DNA of 33,093 bases, from positions 1 through 33,093 of the forward strand of contig JAGNSI010000009.1 of assembly GCA_017988135.1 (NCBI GenBank), written 5' to 3'. The notes beneath the pieces are model-generated. The model did not search any database. It was not told the origin of the DNA and worked only from the letters and a program-made list of their open reading frames with translations. Every line of letters starts with the position of its first letter. Within the stretch, counting starts at the first letter, position 1. The position numbers were made by a program, and so were the translations under genes. Origin of the DNA: Pseudarcicella sp. (GTDB lineage: Bacteria > Bacteroidota > Bacteroidia > Cytophagales > Spirosomataceae). Positions 4,628 through 22,371 of this stretch are shown here, piece by piece.

Positions 4628-5440
4628 TTAATTTAAACCAGAACGCATCTTTTGTATTTGATCTAAAGATAACTTAGTATGTTGAGCAATTTCAACATCA
4701 CTTAAACTTGATTTAAACAAACTTCTTGCAATATTTTTTATAGTGGCATTCATTCTTCCTTTTTCGTCTTGTTCTCGCATAAGAGCATAGTCATAAGCTT
4801 CCAATTCAGCTTTTGTCCAATTATGTTTAGATGCATCTTCATAAGCAAATCTCAAGCCTGTATCAGTTAAGTTGTCAGGTATTAAGTTTAAGTTTTCTGC
4901 ATTTTTTATAAAATATACCCATTGATCTACTACAGAATTCAATTCACTTTCTTGTTTATTAAATTTGGGCAATTCAATAAAATTAAACTCAATATCTTTT
5001 ATGTAGTTTTCATTTGTTTCTATGTCTATTATTTTATGCCTGCTGATATAACTTGGGTTTTGTGTTGCTTCAAAATCCAATATTCCTATAAAATAAGTAG
5101 GATTAAGATTTTCGTATTGATCACCTCGCTCTATTTGTGCCGAATAGCTTTTTGAAGCATAATATAATACACGTTTATCAAAAGCGTCTACTTCTGCTAC
5201 TTGCATTTCTACAATGTACTCTTTTCCATTTATATCTTTAGCTTTTATATCAACTATTGTCACTTTTCCTCCTTTTAAATCAGGTAATTGATAAGGCGTT
5301 AAAATAACTACATCAACAATTTTACAGTTTGATTCGAGTAATAAAACAGCATTTAAAAAAGAAATCAAAACTTCTTTTCTATTTTCATTTCCGAAAATTT
5401 TCCTAAATGCTACATCGTTTTTTATATCTACAAATTTCAT
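4628..5440 (-). CDS. Rpn-family PD-(D/E)XK nuclease / putative transposase
   Basis: This 270-residue protein opens with FVDIKNDVAFRKIFG and continues with ISFLNAVL, characteristic of the Rpn/COG5464 (PDDEXK_2) family. The nuclease core is visible as Asp64 in VDIKAKD and Glu78-x-Gln80 in YIVEMQV. A C-terminal segment (SLSDVEIAQHTKLSLDQIQKMRS) resembles the short helical motif usual at the end of these proteins. E. coli Rpn members promote recombination in a RecA-independent way; that role is not shown here. The gene looks complete. I see no flanking inverted repeats or target duplications, so it is not an obvious insertion sequence. It sits alone between gmd and the SPOR gene with its own promoter-like site. 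Confidence 0.85.
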   Translation of the reverse strand: MKFVDIKNDVAFRKIFGNENRKEVLISFLNAVLLLESNCKIVDVVILTPYQLPDLKGGKVTIVDIKAKDINGKEYIVEMQVAEVDAFDKRVLYYASKSYSAQIERGDQYENLNPTYFIGILDFEATQNPSYISRHKIIDIETNENYIKDIEFNFIELPKFNKQESELNSVVDQWVYFIKNAENLNLIPDNLTDTGLRFAYEDASKHNWTKAELEAYDYALMREQDEKGRMNATIKNIARSLFKSSLSDVEIAQHTKLSLDQIQKMRSGLN

Positions 5441-5526
5441 ATCTAAGGAATCTGTTATAAATAAAATTCAAAAAATGTAAACTATTATTTTTATTACCAA
5501 TGCTATATTTACTAATCAAACTCCAA

Positions 5527-5557
5527 CAAAGGTAAGCCTTTCGGGTTACTTCACCAA
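5527..5557 (-). promoter_or_regulatory. Probable promoter for the Rpn-family gene
   Basis: Read on the - strand, TTG at 5557-5555 is followed after 20 bases by TACCTTTG at 5534-5527. This fits the Bacteroidota pattern TTG-N17-23-TAnnTTTG. It lies about 85 bases before the start codon at 5440 and overlaps the 3' end of the SPOR gene, suggesting independent transcription. Confidence 0.45.
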
Positions 5558-6088
5558 CAGACCTTTTTTGATTTCTACTTTATCGGGCAATATAATGGCG
5601 GCAGGAAACGCTTCTTTGAGCTTATATAAATATTGTTCGGCTTGGGTTCTTTTCAGAAAATCTCCTACTTTAATTTTGTAAATTGGCACATTAAAATACA
5701 TGTAAGGGTCTATTTCTGGGTAATTTTTATAAATAAAAACTTTGGCTTCGTCTGCCATTGTTTTTTCATTTCCTACATATATTTGAATACGAAAACCGTT
5801 AGCAAATTTGATATTTTTTATTTGTTCGGTTATTGAATCAAGTAACGAATCTACACGACCATTGTCGTTATTTAACTTAATTTTTGATGGTTGAGCTGAT
5901 AAAGAATCTTGTAATTCGTAGTAAGCTTCTGTTGGTTTTTGAAGATTTCTATACTTAGATAGATCTTTTTGATAAAAGGTTTTCCCAGAATCAATCAAAA
6001 AAAGTGAATTATTGAGACTAAAAGCATTAATTTTAACAAAAAATACAAGTAGTGTTATAAAAATAACTTTGATACTAAATATTTGCAT
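5546..6088 (-). CDS. Exported SPOR-domain protein
   Basis: This 180-residue protein has an N-terminal hydrophobic segment (residues about 5-22, VIFITLLVFFVKINAF) that acts as signal peptide or anchor. A low-complexity linker follows. The C-terminal domain (about 97-178) matches SPOR: GFRIQIYVGNEKTMADEA, a middle PIYKIKVGDF and a last helix rich in Lys/Ala. SPOR domains bind denuded peptidoglycan glycan strands at division or remodelling sites. The start ATG immediately precedes the hydrophobic segment. It is divergent from murB, another peptidoglycan gene. A TAnnTTTG-like box (TAAATTTG on the - strand) lies at 6131-6138. The specific role is unknown. Confidence 0.8.
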   Translation of the reverse strand: MQIFSIKVIFITLLVFFVKINAFSLNNSLFLIDSGKTFYQKDLSKYRNLQKPTEAYYELQDSLSAQPSKIKLNNDNGRVDSLLDSITEQIKNIKFANGFRIQIYVGNEKTMADEAKVFIYKNYPEIDPYMYFNVPIYKIKVGDFLKRTQAEQYLYKLKEAFPAAIILPDKVEIKKGLLVK

Positions 6089-6130
6089 ATTGATTGTTTC
6101 GAACTAGATTCTTTATTTTAAATTGGCTAA

Positions 6131-6138
6131 CAAATTTA
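6131..6138 (-). promoter_or_regulatory. Possible -7 box for the SPOR-domain gene
   Basis: TAAATTTG on the - strand fits TAnnTTTG and lies 43 bases before the ATG. No clear TTG element is found at the right distance upstream, so support is weak. Confidence 0.28.
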
Positions 6139-6306
6139 ATTATTTGACTGGAATCTTTTACAGAAAAGCCATAGACGACATAAAGTTAATTCAATTTGTG
6201 TAAAATTCATAATGAGTTGTAATTATGTGATTTTAATAGACTGACATTCAATAATATTTGTAATATTTTTCAAAAAAAACTAACACTTAGATTCATTCAA
6301 ACATAA

Positions 6307-7323
6307 ATGCAAATACAAAAAAACTTTTCTTTGACCCAGCTAAATACCTTTGGAATTGAGGCTTTTGCAAAATTTTATATCGAAATAAACCAATTAGACG
6401 ATTTAAAAAATACGCTTAAAAGCTATCCTTTTGGCAGTATTGAATACTTGATATTAGGTGGTGGAAGTAACATTTTGCTTTGTGACAATTTTGATGGACT
6501 TGTTTTGAAAAACAACCTCAAAGGTATAGAAATCACTAAAGAAGAGGATGATTTTGTTTATTTAAAAGTAGGTGCTGGCGAAAATTGGCATGAATTTGTG
6601 CTTTATTGTATCAAAAACAATTATGCTGGCGTAGAGAATCTTTCGCTCATTCCTGGCACTGTAGGAGCTGCACCTATGCAAAACATTGGGGCTTATGGCG
6701 TTGAGATAAAAGATGTTTTTCATGAATTAGAAGGCTTTCACTTAAAAAAACAAGAAACAGACATTTTTCAACTCAAAGATTGTGACTTTGGCTACCGAGA
6801 AAGTGTTTTTAAAAACAAATTTAAAGGGCAATATTTCATTACTGCTGTTACTTTTAAGTTATCAAAAACACCCAATTTCAAAATCAGTTATGGTGATATT
6901 CAAAAAACTTTAGAAGCTAATCAAGTAAAAGATTTAACCATAAAAGCGGTTTCAGACGCAGTAATATCCATCAGACAAAGTAAACTACCTGACCCCCAAA
7001 AAATAGGAAACGCTGGTAGTTTTTTCAAAAACCCCGAAATATCTGTAGATAATTACAATACTTTGAAAGACAAATTCACCCAAATGCCTTCTTACATTGT
7101 AAATGAAAATACCGTAAAAGTACCTGCTGGCTGGCTAATAGAACAAGCTGGCTGGAAAGGATATAGAGAAGGTAATATAGGAGTTCATGAAAAACAGGCT
7201 TTAGTATTGGTAAATTATGGCAAAGGCAATGGCAACGATTTAGCTCTTTTGTCTGAAAAAATAAAGGCTTCAGTAATGGAAAAGTTTGGCATACAGCTTT
7301 CTACAGAAGTTAATTTCATCTAA
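6307..7323 (+). CDS. murB: UDP-N-acetylmuramate dehydrogenase (UDP-N-acetylenolpyruvoylglucosamine reductase)
   Basis: This 338-residue FAD enzyme carries out the NADPH-dependent second step of UDP-MurNAc synthesis in the cytoplasm. Visible features are the FAD-binding LGGGSNIL (about 50-57), PGTVGAAPMQNIGAYGVE (117-133), the GYRESVF loop with Arg164, the catalytic Ser238 in GNAGSFFKNP, and the terminal Glu334 in STEVNF. The YRESVF loop and overall length point to the type I (E. coli-like) class. kdsA follows after 33 bases and is probably cotranscribed. This couples a peptidoglycan gene with an LPS gene. Confidence 0.96.
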   Translation: MQIQKNFSLTQLNTFGIEAFAKFYIEINQLDDLKNTLKSYPFGSIEYLILGGGSNILLCDNFDGLVLKNNLKGIEITKEEDDFVYLKVGAGENWHEFVLYCIKNNYAGVENLSLIPGTVGAAPMQNIGAYGVEIKDVFHELEGFHLKKQETDIFQLKDCDFGYRESVFKNKFKGQYFITAVTFKLSKTPNFKISYGDIQKTLEANQVKDLTIKAVSDAVISIRQSKLPDPQKIGNAGSFFKNPEISVDNYNTLKDKFTQMPSYIVNENTVKVPAGWLIEQAGWKGYREGNIGVHEKQALVLVNYGKGNGNDLALLSEKIKASVMEKFGIQLSTEVNFI

Positions 7324-16755: not shown

Positions 16756-17106
16756 CTATTCAACCAATCTATTATTATGGTCAGGAAATACCAATCTTGG
16801 CGTGAAACTAGCCGCTTCTTCTTGGGTCATAATTCCGTATGAAATGATAATCACTATATCACCCACTTGAGCTCTGCGTGCGGCAGCACCATTCAGGCAA
16901 ACCATACCAGAACCTCTTTCGCCTTTGATAACGTAAGTTTCAAAACGCTCACCATTGTTGTTATTCACTATTTGAACTTTTTCGTTTACCACAAAACCTG
17001 CGGCATCCATCAAGTCTTCATCGATAGTAACGCTACCTACATAATTAAGCTCTGCCTGTGTAATTTTTACACGGTGTAGCTTAGATTTCATGACATGTAT
17101 TAACAT
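16756..17106 (-). CDS. panD: Aspartate 1-decarboxylase precursor
   Basis: This 116-residue pyruvoyl enzyme makes beta-alanine from aspartate for pantothenate. The self-cleavage site Gly24-Ser25 is present in NYVGSVTID, along with [14 protein letters not shown], Tyr58 in the [12 protein letters not shown] segment and [12 protein letters not shown]. The chosen start (MLIHVMKSK) fits the usual N-terminus of Bacteroidota PanD, with few residues before KLHR. It lies 67 bases downstream of panC, which supplies the partner step. A TAACTTTG box on the - strand (17166-17159) lies in that gap and might give it its own promoter. Confidence 0.96.
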
Positions 17107-17173: not shown

Positions 17174-18010
17174 TTATATAATTATATTATCTATAAGCCG
17201 AGTATTTCCTAAAAAAACAGCCACACAAAAAGCAGTTTCGTTTGGTAGATACTTACTCGAAGTTTGTAAAGAAGCCAATTGCACGATTTCAAAATACTCC
17301 AATTTTAAAGTAGATTCTTTTTCAAATCTATCGATTACCCAATTTTTAATGGATGCTAAAGAATGGGTATCAACCATTGTTTTTGCTTCTGTTAAGATCT
17401 GAAAAATAATGGGTGCTTTCAATCGTTCATCTACTGTCAAATTTTTATTTCTGGACGACATCGCCAATCCATCATTTTCTCTTCGTGTAGGGCAAATATT
17501 TATATTAATTTGAAAACTCAAATCGTTCACCAAGCGTTTTATTACCGCACATTGTTGCAAATCTTTTTGACCGAAATAAGCGTTATCTGGCTGAATGATA
17601 TTAAAAAACTTAGCGACAACTATACCTACACCATTGAAATGACCAGGTCTAAAAGCACCTTCCATTACATTTTCTAAGTCGCCAAATGATATTTTTAGTT
17701 CGGTTGCCGAACGATACATTTCCTCTACAGTAGGCGTAAAAACAACGTCGCAATGATTGTTAAGTAGCATTTCGCAATCTTTATCAACCGTACGTGGGTA
17801 TTTCGCCAAATCAGCCAGATTATTAAATTGAGTTGGATTTACAAAAATTGTACAAACCGTAATATCATTATCTTCTTTAGAAGCTTTTATTAAAGATAAA
17901 TGCCCTTCATGTAGTGCACCCATTGTAGGTACCAATCCGATGGTTTTTCCTTTTTTCCATTCAGATTTCAGAAAAGATTGAAGCTTACTTATTTCAGTAA
18001 AATGTATCAT
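17174..18010 (-). CDS. panC: Pantothenate synthetase (pantoate-beta-alanine ligase)
   Basis: This 278-residue ATP-dependent ligase joins pantoate and beta-alanine. The sequence shows VPTMGALHEGHLSLI with the HxGH signature (His34, His37), FVNPTQF, RPGHFNGVGIVVAKFFNI, FGQKDLQQ and MSSRN. All are standard, and the length is normal. The start ATG at 18010 precedes HFTEISKLQ, as in homologues. It is first in a panC-panD-membrane-protein run and divergent from the starch-synthase-like gene. The panB gene is not in the window. Confidence 0.96.
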   Translation of the reverse strand: MIHFTEISKLQSFLKSEWKKGKTIGLVPTMGALHEGHLSLIKASKEDNDITVCTIFVNPTQFNNLADLAKYPRTVDKDCEMLLNNHCDVVFTPTVEEMYRSATELKISFGDLENVMEGAFRPGHFNGVGIVVAKFFNIIQPDNAYFGQKDLQQCAVIKRLVNDLSFQININICPTRRENDGLAMSSRNKNLTVDERLKAPIIFQILTEAKTMVDTHSLASIKNWVIDRFEKESTLKLEYFEIVQLASLQTSSKYLPNETAFCVAVFLGNTRLIDNIII

Positions 18011-18141: not shown

Positions 18142-18171
18142 TTGAAAACTGAGCTTTTTTTTGTAATTTTG
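18142..18171 (+). promoter_or_regulatory. Probable promoter of the starch-synthase-like / DUF4270 / glmS run
   Basis: TTG at 18142-18144 is followed after exactly 19 bases by TAATTTTG at 18164-18171. This is a near-ideal match to the Bacteroidota promoter pattern and lies 28 bases before the first ATG at 18200. It is the best promoter match I found in the window. Confidence 0.55.
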
Positions 18172-18199: not shown

Positions 18200-19018
18200 A
18201 TGACTCAAATGTCAAAATTCCGTATCCTTTACGTTTCAAGTGAAGTAGACCCTTTTCTCAACACCACAAAAGTGGCTGATTTTGTACGAAAACTACCTAC
18301 AGCAATGCAGGAAAGAGGTTTTGAAATCAGAATTTTAGTGCCTAGATTTGGCCTAATCAACGAAAGAAAAAACAGACTTCATGAAGTAGTACGACTATCG
18401 GGCATAAGCGTACCTGTAGGAGATGACGATAAGCCACTTACCATAAAAGTCGCGAGCATACCGTCTGCAAAATTGCAAGTGTATTTTATAGATACAGAAG
18501 ATTACTTCCAGAGAAAATTTGTTTTCACTAATAAAGAAGAAGAGTTTTACGTTGATAATGACGAAAGAGCTATCTTTTTCTGTAAAGGTGCACTAGAAAC
18601 AGTAAAAAGATTAGGCTGGTCGCCAGACATTGTACACTGTAATGACTGGATGTCTGCTTTGATACCACTTTATATCAAAACGACTTACAAAAACGACCCA
18701 ATTTTCGAAAATTCGAAGGTTATATATTCTATTTACGACAATAGTTTTACCCACAAATTCAAACTAGAAGGTTTGTTTGATAAAGTAAAACAAGAAGAAA
18801 TAGAAGACAAAATGCTTACAAGTTTAACCTCTGCCGATTTCAACGGATTCACCAAAATAGCTGCAGAGTATTCAGACGTAATCATTACTTCAGAAGAAAA
18901 TATAGTAGAAAAATACAATACGATTATTAATGAATTACCTAACAAGAAAATTGAATATGTTTCAGAAGTCAATTATGACAGTTTTTACCAAATCTACCAA
19001 GAACTCGCTAACTCTTAG
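18200..19018 (+). CDS. Short glycogen/starch synthase-like protein (N-terminal GT5 domain only)
   Basis: This protein is 272 residues from ATG 18200, or 269 from ATG 18209 (MSKFRILYVSSEV). It matches the N-terminal Rossmann domain of glycogen/starch synthases: ILYVSSEVDPF, a central NDERAIFFCKGALETVKRLG, and DIVHCNDWMSALIPLYIK. It lacks the whole C-terminal GT-B domain. The ADP-glucose-binding KTGGL motif is replaced by NTTKV. Glycogen synthesis is therefore unlikely, and a binding or regulatory role is possible. From memory, similar short proteins beside panC are common in Bacteroidota. It is divergent from panC, and its 3' end overlaps the DUF4270 gene. Confidence 0.8.
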   Translation: MTQMSKFRILYVSSEVDPFLNTTKVADFVRKLPTAMQERGFEIRILVPRFGLINERKNRLHEVVRLSGISVPVGDDDKPLTIKVASIPSAKLQVYFIDTEDYFQRKFVFTNKEEEFYVDNDERAIFFCKGALETVKRLGWSPDIVHCNDWMSALIPLYIKTTYKNDPIFENSKVIYSIYDNSFTHKFKLEGLFDKVKQEEIEDKMLTSLTSADFNGFTKIAAEYSDVIITSEENIVEKYNTIINELPNKKIEYVSEVNYDSFYQIYQELANS

Positions 19019-20468
19019 ACTATTAGCCATTTTCGCATGTTTTTTTACCTACGCATGTGATGACTTAAATGAAGTAGGAACAGAAATTGTAAATACCAAC
19101 ACTGGAGTATTATATACAGATACTATGCAGGTAGAGGCATCTACTGTGTTGGTAGACTCTATAGTGACTTCCTTCAATGATTTCCTTTTTGCAGGAAGAA
19201 TGAAGGACGAGCAATTTGGGCAATTAGAAGCCGAATCATTTACTGAATTGAGCAATTATGAAACTATCAAATATAGTATTCCTAAAGGACTCTCCGACTC
19301 TACAGAATTTACGCTAATAAAAGACGAGTTAGACAATGTAAACTTGCAATTAATTTATCTAGGAATACAAGGTAATGCAAATGCGAAACAAACGGTTCAT
19401 GTATATGAATTAAACAACGACGTAAAATTAGATTCGTCAAAAGTGTATTACAGCAACAAAAATCAATTTCCTAGCATAAAACCACAGGAAATAGGTTCAA
19501 TCACGCTAGATAAAGTAAATATCTATAAAAATTCAGAAAAAAAACAGCTTGACACATTGTTAATTGATATAAAAGATGTGAATTTCAGACAAAGATTGAA
19601 TACGCTAATAACTCAATCGAAAACTGATTCGATAGCTACTGGAAATTTCAGTAATTTTGTTGCAGGCTTGGCAATCAAAACAACCAGCGACAACAATGCC
19701 GCCATCATAAAATTCAGCAAAAAAGACCTTTTATTAACTGCACGTAGAAATTTAACTTATAGTTATAAAACTAGCAAAGGTGAAAAAATAACAAACACAA
19801 AATATTATAACGTTTATCTTTTAGCAGACTTAAAAAAGCGTTATCAAAACATTTCTCCGCAACAAACGTGTGCAGGAAATATCAAAATAACGGCAAAAAG
19901 AGAAGGTAGCTTGGCTCAATTGATCAATCCAAAAGATATTATCAATGCCAAAAACACCAACAATACTGTTTTTATTCAGGAAGGAACAGGTGTTATAGCT
20001 AAAATAAACTTCCCTACATTGCAAAACTTAGCTAAAGACAAACTTATAGCCATCAATAAAGCTGAGTTGATAATAGAACCCGACGAAAATCCAGCAGGAA
20101 TTAATAAAACAAGCTTCCTTACGTTATTAAAAAACTCAAAAGGAAATGTTCCCAACAGAAATGCAGCTGGTTTAGACATAATAAATATTACAGGATCAAA
20201 TCGTGACAGCTACTACTTTAACGCTGTTGCAAAAAATAACGAATACTCTAAACAATATACTTTTGATATCACAAATCATATCAATGATCAATTTACAGCG
20301 AAAACAAAAGACGAAGGGCTTTTTATAGCACCATTTACCAAATTTGAATCTAACGTAAGTTTTGAAAATTTCAAAAACGAATACAAATTGGAAAACTTAG
20401 GAGCTAGAATGGCCATTCAAACAAAAAACATAAAGTTAAAACTCTACTATTCGTATAAACAACAATAA
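18975..20468 (+). CDS. DUF4270 family lipoprotein
   Basis: Starting at ATG 18975, this 497-residue protein begins with a lipoprotein signal peptide ending in FTYAC, with Cys28 as the lipidation site. ATGs at 18930 and 18957 are in frame but give an over-long leader. The mature part is rich in beta-strand pattern and Asn/Lys, with the family-like opening DDLNEVGTEIV and a repeated VDSIVTS / FAGRMKDEQFG region. DUF4270 proteins are surface-type proteins of Bacteroidota with no known function. The start overlaps the preceding gene by 44 bases, implying cotranscription. glmS follows 67 bases downstream. Its role next to GlmS is unexplained. Confidence 0.82.
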   Translation: MTVFTKSTKNSLTLRLLAIFACFFTYACDDLNEVGTEIVNTNTGVLYTDTMQVEASTVLVDSIVTSFNDFLFAGRMKDEQFGQLEAESFTELSNYETIKYSIPKGLSDSTEFTLIKDELDNVNLQLIYLGIQGNANAKQTVHVYELNNDVKLDSSKVYYSNKNQFPSIKPQEIGSITLDKVNIYKNSEKKQLDTLLIDIKDVNFRQRLNTLITQSKTDSIATGNFSNFVAGLAIKTTSDNNAAIIKFSKKDLLLTARRNLTYSYKTSKGEKITNTKYYNVYLLADLKKRYQNISPQQTCAGNIKITAKREGSLAQLINPKDIINAKNTNNTVFIQEGTGVIAKINFPTLQNLAKDKLIAINKAELIIEPDENPAGINKTSFLTLLKNSKGNVPNRNAAGLDIINITGSNRDSYYFNAVAKNNEYSKQYTFDITNHINDQFTAKTKDEGLFIAPFTKFESNVSFENFKNEYKLENLGARMAIQTKNIKLKLYYSYKQQ

Positions 20469-20535: not shown

Positions 20536-22371
20536 ATGTGTGGAATAGTAGCATACGTAGGGCATCGCCAAGCAAGCCCATTAATTTTGAAAGGACTAAA
20601 AAGACTAGAATACCGTGGTTATGACAGCGCAGGCATAGCTTTAATAAATGATGTATTAAATATTTATAAGAAAAAAGGGAAAGTTGCCGATCTAGAAAGC
20701 ATTTTAGGCGATAAAAACCTTGATAGCCATATAGGAATAGGACATACTCGTTGGGCAACACACGGTGAACCAAACGACAGAAATGCCCATCCGCACTATT
20801 CAGCTTCACAAAAATTAGCTATTATTCACAACGGAATAATAGAAAACTACGCTTCTATAAAGAAAAATTTAATCAACAAAGGTCATGTATTCCATTCAGA
20901 TACAGACTCTGAAGTTTTTGTACATTTCATAGAAGATATTCAAGTAAAAACCAACTGTAAGCTCGAAGAAGCTGTAAGATTGGCAATGAAAGAAGTTGTA
21001 GGAGCTTATGCTATTGTTATCATGGACACTGAAAACCCTACTCAACTTATTGCAGCTAGAAAGGGTTCTCCATTAGTGATTGGTGTAGGAAATAATGAAT
21101 TCTTTTTTGCATCAGATGCCACACCTATCATAGAGTACACTAACGAAATGATATACTTGAATGACCTTGAAATAGCCGTAGTGAACAATGGTGAACTGGT
21201 CATTAAAAATATCAACAATACCATACAGTCTCCTTATATACAGACCATAGAAATGGAATTGGAAGCCATAGAAAAAGGCGGATACGAACATTTTATGCTT
21301 AAAGAAATATTTGAGCAACCTCGTTCTGTGGCAGACTGCATGAGGGGTCGCTTAAATGCAGAAAAGAATCACTTGGTATTGGGCGGGCTTAGAGATTATA
21401 TAGACAAATTGGCAACAGCCAACAGAATAGTAATCATAGCCTGTGGTACATCTTGGCATGCTGGGCTAGTAGCTGAATATATTTTTGAAGAGTTTGCTCG
21501 CATAAATGTAGAAGTTGAATACGCTTCAGAATTCAGATACAGAAACCCTATCATCAAAGAAGGAGATTTTGTAATTGCAATTTCTCAATCTGGTGAAACC
21601 GCAGATACTTTGGCAGCTATCGAATTGGCTAAATCTAAAGGAGCAACTATCATAGGTGTTTGCAATGTAGTAGGCTCATCTATACCACGTGCTACTCACG
21701 CAGGTGCATATACACACGCTGGTCCTGAAATAGGCGTAGCATCTACCAAAGCATTTACAGCCCAAGTTACTGTACTTACGCAAATGGCTATATCGGTAGC
21801 CCGCAAAAAAGGAACACTTACAGGAGATGCTTTCAGACGATTATTGTTTGAACTTGAAGCAATTCCTGCTAAAATAGAAAGAGTACTACAAAGCGACGAA
21901 AAAATAAAAACCATTGCAGCTAAATTTAAAGATGCACGAAATTTTATTTACCTAGGCAGAGGATATAACTTCCCTGTTGCACTGGAAGGAGCACTCAAAC
22001 TAAAAGAAATATCATATATTCATGCCGAAGGATATCCTGCAGCTGAAATGAAACATGGTCCAATTGCTTTGATAGACGAAGAAATGCCAGTAGTAGTAAT
22101 AGCCACAAAAGATAGCTCTTACGAAAAATTGGTTTCAAACATTCAAGAAGTAAAAGCTAGAAAAGGCGTTGTGATTGCCATAGTAACAGAAGGCGACAAA
22201 ACTATTCCTACAATGGCTGACTTTATAATAGAAATACCTGCTACACACGAAGCCCTAAATCCATTGGTTTCTGTGGTACCACTACAACTACTCTCTTACC
22301 ATATTGCGGTGATGAGAGGTTGCAATGTAGACCAACCAAGAAATTTAGCAAAATCGGTTACTGTAGAATAA
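20536..22371 (+). CDS. glmS: Glutamine-fructose-6-phosphate aminotransferase (isomerizing)
   Basis: This 611-residue cytoplasmic enzyme makes glucosamine 6-phosphate from fructose 6-phosphate and glutamine, the entry to amino-sugar and peptidoglycan synthesis. The nucleophile Cys2 in MCGIVAYVG is present, then RWATHGEPNDRNAHPH and HNGIIENY of the glutaminase half. Two SIS sugar-isomerase domains follow (AISQSGETADTLAA; GRGYNFPVALEGALKLKEISYIHAEGYPAAEMKHGPIAL). The C-terminus LAKSVTVE is typical. No glmS ribozyme-like leader is evident in the 67-base gap before it. A long terminator hairpin follows. Confidence 0.98.
   Translation: MCGIVAYVGHRQASPLILKGLKRLEYRGYDSAGIALINDVLNIYKKKGKVADLESILGDKNLDSHIGIGHTRWATHGEPNDRNAHPHYSASQKLAIIHNGIIENYASIKKNLINKGHVFHSDTDSEVFVHFIEDIQVKTNCKLEEAVRLAMKEVVGAYAIVIMDTENPTQLIAARKGSPLVIGVGNNEFFFASDATPIIEYTNEMIYLNDLEIAVVNNGELVIKNINNTIQSPYIQTIEMELEAIEKGGYEHFMLKEIFEQPRSVADCMRGRLNAEKNHLVLGGLRDYIDKLATANRIVIIACGTSWHAGLVAEYIFEEFARINVEVEYASEFRYRNPIIKEGDFVIAISQSGETADTLAAIELAKSKGATIIGVCNVVGSSIPRATHAGAYTHAGPEIGVASTKAFTAQVTVLTQMAISVARKKGTLTGDAFRRLLFELEAIPAKIERVLQSDEKIKTIAAKFKDARNFIYLGRGYNFPVALEGALKLKEISYIHAEGYPAAEMKHGPIALIDEEMPVVVIATKDSSYEKLVSNIQEVKARKGVVIAIVTEGDKTIPTMADFIIEIPATHEALNPLVSVVPLQLLSYHIAVMRGCNVDQPRNLAKSVTVE

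Follow-up and report, generated by a model that had tools for sequence, protein, structure and literature searches.

A core gene of Bacteroidia directly upstream of bamH encodes a GT5 N-domain protein that lacks the donor domain and is very likely non-catalytic

We found that a gene in the window (the whole 33,093-nucleotide stretch of DNA that was analysed) encodes a GT5 N-domain protein, here named GTN, which is a class-wide core gene product of Bacteroidia and is encoded directly upstream of the gene for BamH, a surface lipoprotein of the Bacteroidota BAM complex. We computed the fold of GTN, its loss of donor-site residues and of a domain, its retention, the identity of bamH, the promoter and the gene order. 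The reading that we favour, with a probability of about one half, is that GTN is a non-catalytic, cytosolic former GT5 enzyme from which the donor domain would have been excised, which would act by binding and be made together with BamH.

The GTN open reading frame (ORF) was intact. It matched Pfam Glyco_transf_5 with 188.6 bits (cut-off 22.7), with protein residues 8–235 covering profile positions 1–220 of 239, in agreement with the GT5 N-domain signatures pointed out in the sequence-only reading; the motif IVHCNDW occupies residues 144–150. That reading had also described a replacement of KTGGL by NTTKV and a missing C-terminal GT-B half, and both were borne out: the replacement lies at residues 21–25, no second GT domain scored above the cut-offs in the ORF, the C-terminal donor domain is absent and the DUF4270 ORF overlaps the 3′ end. 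Translation probably begins at the ATG at 18209, since the corresponding Met4 is present in 97% of the aligned relatives. Profile matches placed each neighbour where it had been claimed to be, with panC and panD divergent and the DUF4270 gene and glmS downstream (Table 1). The promoter upstream of GTN is real: the pattern TTG-N17-21-TAnnTTTG preceded 90 of 155 GTN relatives, compared with 1.9 expected from single-base shuffles, and its −7 part alone was observed in 144 of 155 against 23.1 expected.

Table 1. Positions of GTN, its features and its neighbours in the window
Feature	Position	Strand	Basis or remark
panD	16756..17106	-	
panC, divergent from GTN	17174..18010	-	
Bacteroidetes-type promoter TTG-N19-TAATTTTG upstream of GTN	18142..18171	+	kept among relatives
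GTN (GT5 N-domain protein), 272 aa	18200..19018	+	ORF with ATG; Glyco_transf_5 match
NTTKV replacing KTGGL, GTN residues 21-25	18260..18274	+	sequence and alignment of relatives
Tyr179 codon of GTN, His161 position of E. coli glycogen synthase	18734..18736	+	alignment
bamH (DUF4270 surface lipoprotein)	18957..20468	+	start 18957 or 18975; overlaps GTN 3′ end
C-terminal helix of GTN, residues 258-270	18971..19009	+	resembles last helix of full-length GT5
glmS, next gene after bamH	20536..22371	+	TIGR01135 829 bits, cut-off 418

GTN matches were present in 190 of the 198 sampled genomes of the class, in 173 of the 175 of good quality (completeness of 90% or more, contamination of 5% or less) and, within the order, in 96 of 98. 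We took the class to be Bacteroidia because the named relatives were mostly Cytophagales. Frame lengths were taken from the matches listed; one genome counted as a match (G364) has a frame of only 60 aa, and an apparent longer form of 472 aa (G264) proved to be this short protein read in a frame that is too long. No GT5 N-domain other than GTN was found in the window's own genome (2.7 Mb, 253 contigs, completeness 100). Across 80 named loci, chosen from 387 as those matching GTN itself best and hence biased, the median identity to the window was 64.8% for GTN, 52.3% for PanC (70 loci), 76.7% for GlmS (69), 73.0% for PanD (40) and 24.7% for BamH (41 with a long enough match). The corresponding values for the class loci, a non-random set of about one per family from the matches listed, were 45.8% (76), 44.5% (58), 68.1% (47), 63.4% (30) and 24.8% (25). 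GTN exceeded PanC only in the biased named loci; its conservation is similar to that of PanC, and we claim parity at most.

A gene for a DUF4270 protein lay on the same strand within 1.5 kb downstream of GTN in 64 of the 80 named loci and 65 of 75 class loci (76 less the full-length L260), as the sequence-only reading had led us to expect; the DUF4270 profile was built from matches in these very neighbourhoods, and some of the surveyed loci stop at contig ends. On the same terms, panC was divergent from GTN in 70/80 and 58/75 loci, and glmS was within 1.5 kb in 41/80 and 39/75. All seven loci of family f7 that were picked around DUF4270 had the order panD-panC, divergent, then the GTN gene, DUF4270 and glmS. 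At three loci (L225, L227 and L234, from G002, G007 and G350), no DUF4270 gene was detected beside GTN; panC stays there, and DUF4270 is encoded elsewhere in the genome. At L250 (6946–8369), flippase-like and HldE-like nucleotidyltransferase genes, named by eye, sit beside GTN and recall the sugar-phosphate genes near the sister-class GT5 operon described below.

The DUF4270 lipoprotein of the window is BamH. It matched Pfam DUF4270 with 100.4 bits (cut-off 27). A single-sequence phmmer search with this protein alone found no credible PDB match; a profile of 28 sequences with the window's first (A3) matched 9hjm_G (8.1e-51), 9n2d_C, entitled ‘Bam H’ (4.8e-45), and 9his_G (6.9e-29). The same three BAM-complex chains were the top hits of its AF2 model (pLDDT 75.6; E 7.0e-21 to 2.3e-18), and a relative with a short GT5 gene directly upstream (L312) matched 9n2d_C at 8.9e-187. 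The lipoprotein cysteine, C34, is invariant in alignments A3 and A4, and by eye the sequence CDDLNE has the form of a surface export signal, a Cys followed by acidic residues. BamG is encoded on another contig of the window's genome (323.6 bits; cut-off 250). The suggested role in amino-sugar supply draws on glmS, a looser neighbour of GTN than the DUF4270 gene; with the DUF4270 protein being BamH, the context is outer-membrane assembly.

In the BAM papers, BamH carries the names Fjoh_0823 and Bt4306 (PMC12611786, PMC12578637; accessible text), and from locus numbers and gene order fjoh_0824 and BT_4307 are presumed to be the GTN orthologues. According to the accessible text of PMC12611786, attempts to delete bamG and bamH in F. 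johnsoniae failed, except that bamH could be removed in the presence of a bamA suppressor, and the fjoh_0824 promoter was used for expression; in B. thetaiotaomicron, bamH was deletable, with growth and stress defects (PMC12578637, accessible text). The word ‘glycogen’ is absent from the main texts of these two papers, and their accessible parts describe no cytosolic input to BAM.

We compared the residues of GTN with the contacts of E. coli glycogen synthase to ADP-glucose, which include K15, G18, H161, N246, R300, K305 and E377, among others (PMC6210743, PMC7137382; accessible text). K15 aligned with N21 and H161 with Y179, and R300, K305 and E377 fall in the half that GTN is missing. Among 192 unique relatives (after removal of duplicates, of frames outside 230–344 aa and of hits scoring 200 bits or less), the K15 position held Q in 59, K in 42 and E in 40, the G18 position E in 55, D in 36 and A in 17, and the H161 position Y in 166, F in 16 and H in 4. 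Acceptor-side residues were partly retained, with E9 present in 33/33 sequences and D137 in 9/33, where 23 have G instead. GTN matched 11 NCBIfam models, each below its cut-off; the best was the starch synthase PRK14098 (NF010698; 206.1 of 754 bits). Of the marks of a GT5 glycogen synthase, GTN thus has the N-domain and lacks KTGGL, His161, the C-terminal donor domain and an NCBIfam score above cut-off. Like GlgA (PF08323 plus the GT-B C-domain), it has the N-domain fold and sequence, the terminal helix, E9 and the HC(N)DW region; unlike GlgA, it is without the donor domain, with K15, G17, G18 and H161 mostly replaced, and it adjoins bamH, whereas the canonical GlgA of L299 and L301–L305 adjoins a glgC-like gene (by eye).

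Judged from these residues, GTN is very likely non-catalytic. Loss of KTGGL alone is no proof of a dead enzyme, given that the full-length GT5 of L300 has RVSSL in its place; this gene (G153, 5287–6753) adjoins a BchL-like gene (by eye), and the sampled genomes of its family mostly have one GT5. The replacement of most K15, G18 and H161 residues argues against sugar-nucleotide sensing by the old donor site, one of the roles that had been considered. The broader proposal of a repurposed, non-glycogen protein stands, with the donor motif and C-terminal half lost and the donor contacts mostly replaced.

The AF2 model of GTN, made from 46 sequences (pLDDT 80.9, pTM 0.86), aligned to known starch and glycogen synthase structures, namely 6gne_B (Z 27.4, 253 residues, 2.6 Å) and 2qzs (Z 24.6, 242 residues, 2.6 Å); structure prediction had been proposed as a check. 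In the alignment to 2qzs, the first and last aligned chain residues were 1 and 477. A profile made from the 13 residues of the C-terminal helix had its best window at most four residues from the C-terminus in 20 of 22 bamH-linked full-length GT5 proteins; in L279 the best window was 19 residues from the end, and in L272 the terminal window ranked second. Over all 36 full-length proteins, it came first and within five residues of the end in 28 and not in eight. The scores are modest, reaching as low as −4.0 in those 28, and the proteins are related to one another, which makes this support and not proof. Because the model aligns as far as residue 477 of 2qzs and the C-terminal helix profile matches, excision is preferred over simple truncation: the two results suggest that the donor domain was cut out and that the helix crossing back to the N-domain was kept. 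By its title, an engineered sucrose-phosphate synthase (27–220 plus 406–426; 6ldq) likewise joins the N-domain to a terminal segment, but that layout is man-made and that of GTN is natural.

Full-length GT5 genes in sister classes pointed to the origin of this arrangement. All 20 sister-class stretches picked by GT5 match encoded full-length proteins, each followed on the same strand by a BamH-like gene (20/20; E up to 1e-3 with filters off, weakest 1e-4 in L276 and 2e-5 in L274; gaps up to 2.3 kb). These stretches came from the best GT5 matches, G144 being chosen for its match to GTN, and for G097, G078 and G128 short flanking sequences had shown the BamH-like neighbour beforehand. Among 16 further full-length GT5 proteins, a BamH-like gene was downstream in three (L291, L292 and L294) and not in 13, and it followed canonical GlgA in 0/6 (L299, L301–L305). 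Three short forms outside the class, of 266 aa (L297 and L298) and 288 aa (L296), each had a BamH-like gene downstream. No match to PanC, PanD or GlmS was found near the 36 full-length sister GT5 genes or the three short forms. Because the sister-class full-length genes precede a BamH-like gene in 20/20 stretches, the GT5-bamH pairing appears to be older than the excision.

A tree of 72 rows and 229 columns, in which L244 and L252 are on long branches, placed the 33 class GTN sequences in one clade (100/97), joined by L297/L298 (100/99); a larger group added six bamH-linked GT5 proteins and L300 (99/95), and L296 fell elsewhere. The comparison with full-length GlgA that had been called for found the closest sequences to be bamH-linked full-length GT5 proteins. 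The position of L296 in the best tree would fit two independent excisions, but under the AU test one common origin for every short form was not rejected (p 0.141). These bamH-linked proteins are nearest to GTN in the tree and share its downstream neighbour, but are unlike it in length (about 490 aa) and in keeping K15 in 22/22 and His161 in 21/22. For nine sister genomes (G120, G097, G004, G164, G078, G125, G039, G133 and G137), the matches listed include no GT5 besides the bamH-linked one, which could therefore be a genuine glycogen synthase in those genomes.

The sister-class loci also have a gene order of their own. A HAD phosphatase with a DRDGT/K motif lay within 1.5 kb downstream at 14 of the 22 bamH-linked full-length loci (L268–L287, L291 and L294). 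For the barrel after the BamH-like gene, compared at nine loci, NCBIfam BamG scored above 250 in L268, L269, L271, L273, L280, L296 and L297 and below this cut-off in L279 (235.7) and L294 (130.5). The order read from L268, L270, L271, L273, L276 and L296, with genes outside the searches named by eye from their N-termini, is GT5, GmhB-like phosphatase (absent from L273), BamH-like lipoprotein and BamG or BamG-like barrel; several loci then carry RpiB-like, GlyA-like and TatC-like genes (by eye). This order links BAM genes to sugar-phosphate enzymes. A link to ADP-heptose was dropped, as two GmhB-like proteins scored 171.5 and 166.2 bits against the NF006506 cut-off of 178.

GTN was also found in genomes in which BamH was not detected. 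Pfam DUF4270 proved too strict a measure of BamH absence, as it misses divergent BamH: two genomes without a Pfam match (G049 and G363) have an adjacent DUF4270 gene by our own profile (288 and 257 bits), and so do G301, G340 and G204 (L253, L257 and L250). GTN was kept without a Pfam DUF4270 match in four f57 genomes (G216, G230, G244 and G257; 1.0–1.2 Mb) and in G307, and our own profile found no DUF4270 in loci L242, L243, L249 and L252; because Pfam misses divergent BamH elsewhere, we grade BamH in these genomes as ‘not detected’. G307, a single 0.49-Mb contig, retains GTN at 36% identity; its short GT5 gene (L252, 5986–6840) is flanked by gyrB-like and eno-like genes (by eye), and BamH went undetected. 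Both GTN and DUF4270 were undetected in G252, G282, G370 and G400, and the 60% complete G458 has DUF4270 and no match to GTN. GTN is not simply an accessory of BamH, being retained by some reduced genomes in which BamH was not detected.

In our favoured explanation, the ancestor would have been a full-length GT5 encoded upstream of bamH, a position retained in most Bacteroidia. Excision of the donor domain would have left the N-terminal, acceptor-side Rossmann domain and the terminal GT-B helix, and GTN would most likely work through binding, as an adaptor or regulator that responds to a ligand and is co-expressed with BamH as part of cell-envelope assembly. GTN is probably cytosolic, as no signal peptide was seen by eye; a cytosolic GTN and a surface lipoprotein cannot touch directly, which counts against this explanation. 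A more specific proposal, which we regard as rather doubtful, makes GTN a cytosolic control arm that reads a sugar, nucleotide or cobamide and sets BamH/BAM output or BAM-linked glycosylation. GTN could instead be a housekeeping binding protein unrelated to BAM, for example with a cofactor or pantothenate/CoA role, with bamH merely co-transcribed. Its retention without detectable BamH and the frequent divergent panC speak for this, as does a vitamin B12 photoprobe study in which 16 proteins were enriched in each of two screens, BT_4307 being one of them (log2 2.61 and 1.05; PMC8941943, accessible text). That list also includes trigger factor and a porin (same source), however, and 36 sister-class GT5 stretches gave no match to PanC, PanD or GlmS (E up to 1e-3), with a BamH-like gene downstream in 26, leaving a housekeeping role somewhat unlikely. 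The enrichment suggests that the BT_4307 protein is made and that a cobamide is one candidate ligand.

The predicted intact N-domain fold and the invariant E9 would also suit one half of a split glycosyltransferase, with a donor domain encoded elsewhere joining in trans. Alg14 with Alg13 offers the comparison, as a split enzyme whose halves join in trans. This is quite improbable for GTN, in whose relatives K15, G18 and H161 are mostly replaced; a separate C-terminal half nearby, which would have spoken against repurposing, was not found, and a search of the window's genome with a related GT5 C-half gave two weak matches only (E 3.4e-6 and 0.005; frames of 379 and 427 aa) and no lone GT5-like C-half. 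An active short glycogen synthase, as annotated, has the database name and the citation of BT_4307 as a potential glycogen synthase (PMC10797578, accessible text) on its side, but the missing donor domain, the replaced N-domain contacts and the sub-threshold NCBIfam scores rule it out for practical purposes. Equally far-fetched is a decaying relic without function: it would account for the lost motif and domain, but not for the wide retention, an identity close to that of PanC in the class loci or the conserved promoter.

Earlier mentions of the gene are few. One sentence in a review refers to a GlgA-GT5 fragment in Bacteroidetes (PMC11046441, accessible text); this is very likely the GTN gene, mentioned there, in the accessible part, without function, structure, origin or a link to bamH. 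BT_4307 has been named a putative glycogen synthase (PMC8941943) and cited as a sign of glycogen storage (PMC10797578), both in the accessible text. No link between GTN and BAM was found in open PMC papers. New here are the Tyr at the His161 position, the apparent excision of the donor domain, the identity of the DUF4270 protein as BamH and the seemingly older GT5-BamH pairing.

The database name ‘glycogen synthase’ is probably wrong for GTN, so the class has a core gene under a misleading label. GTN resembles a naturally occurring excision of a GT-B domain, and its position directly upstream of bamH allows a direct test of whether it is a cytosolic partner of Bacteroidota outer-membrane assembly.
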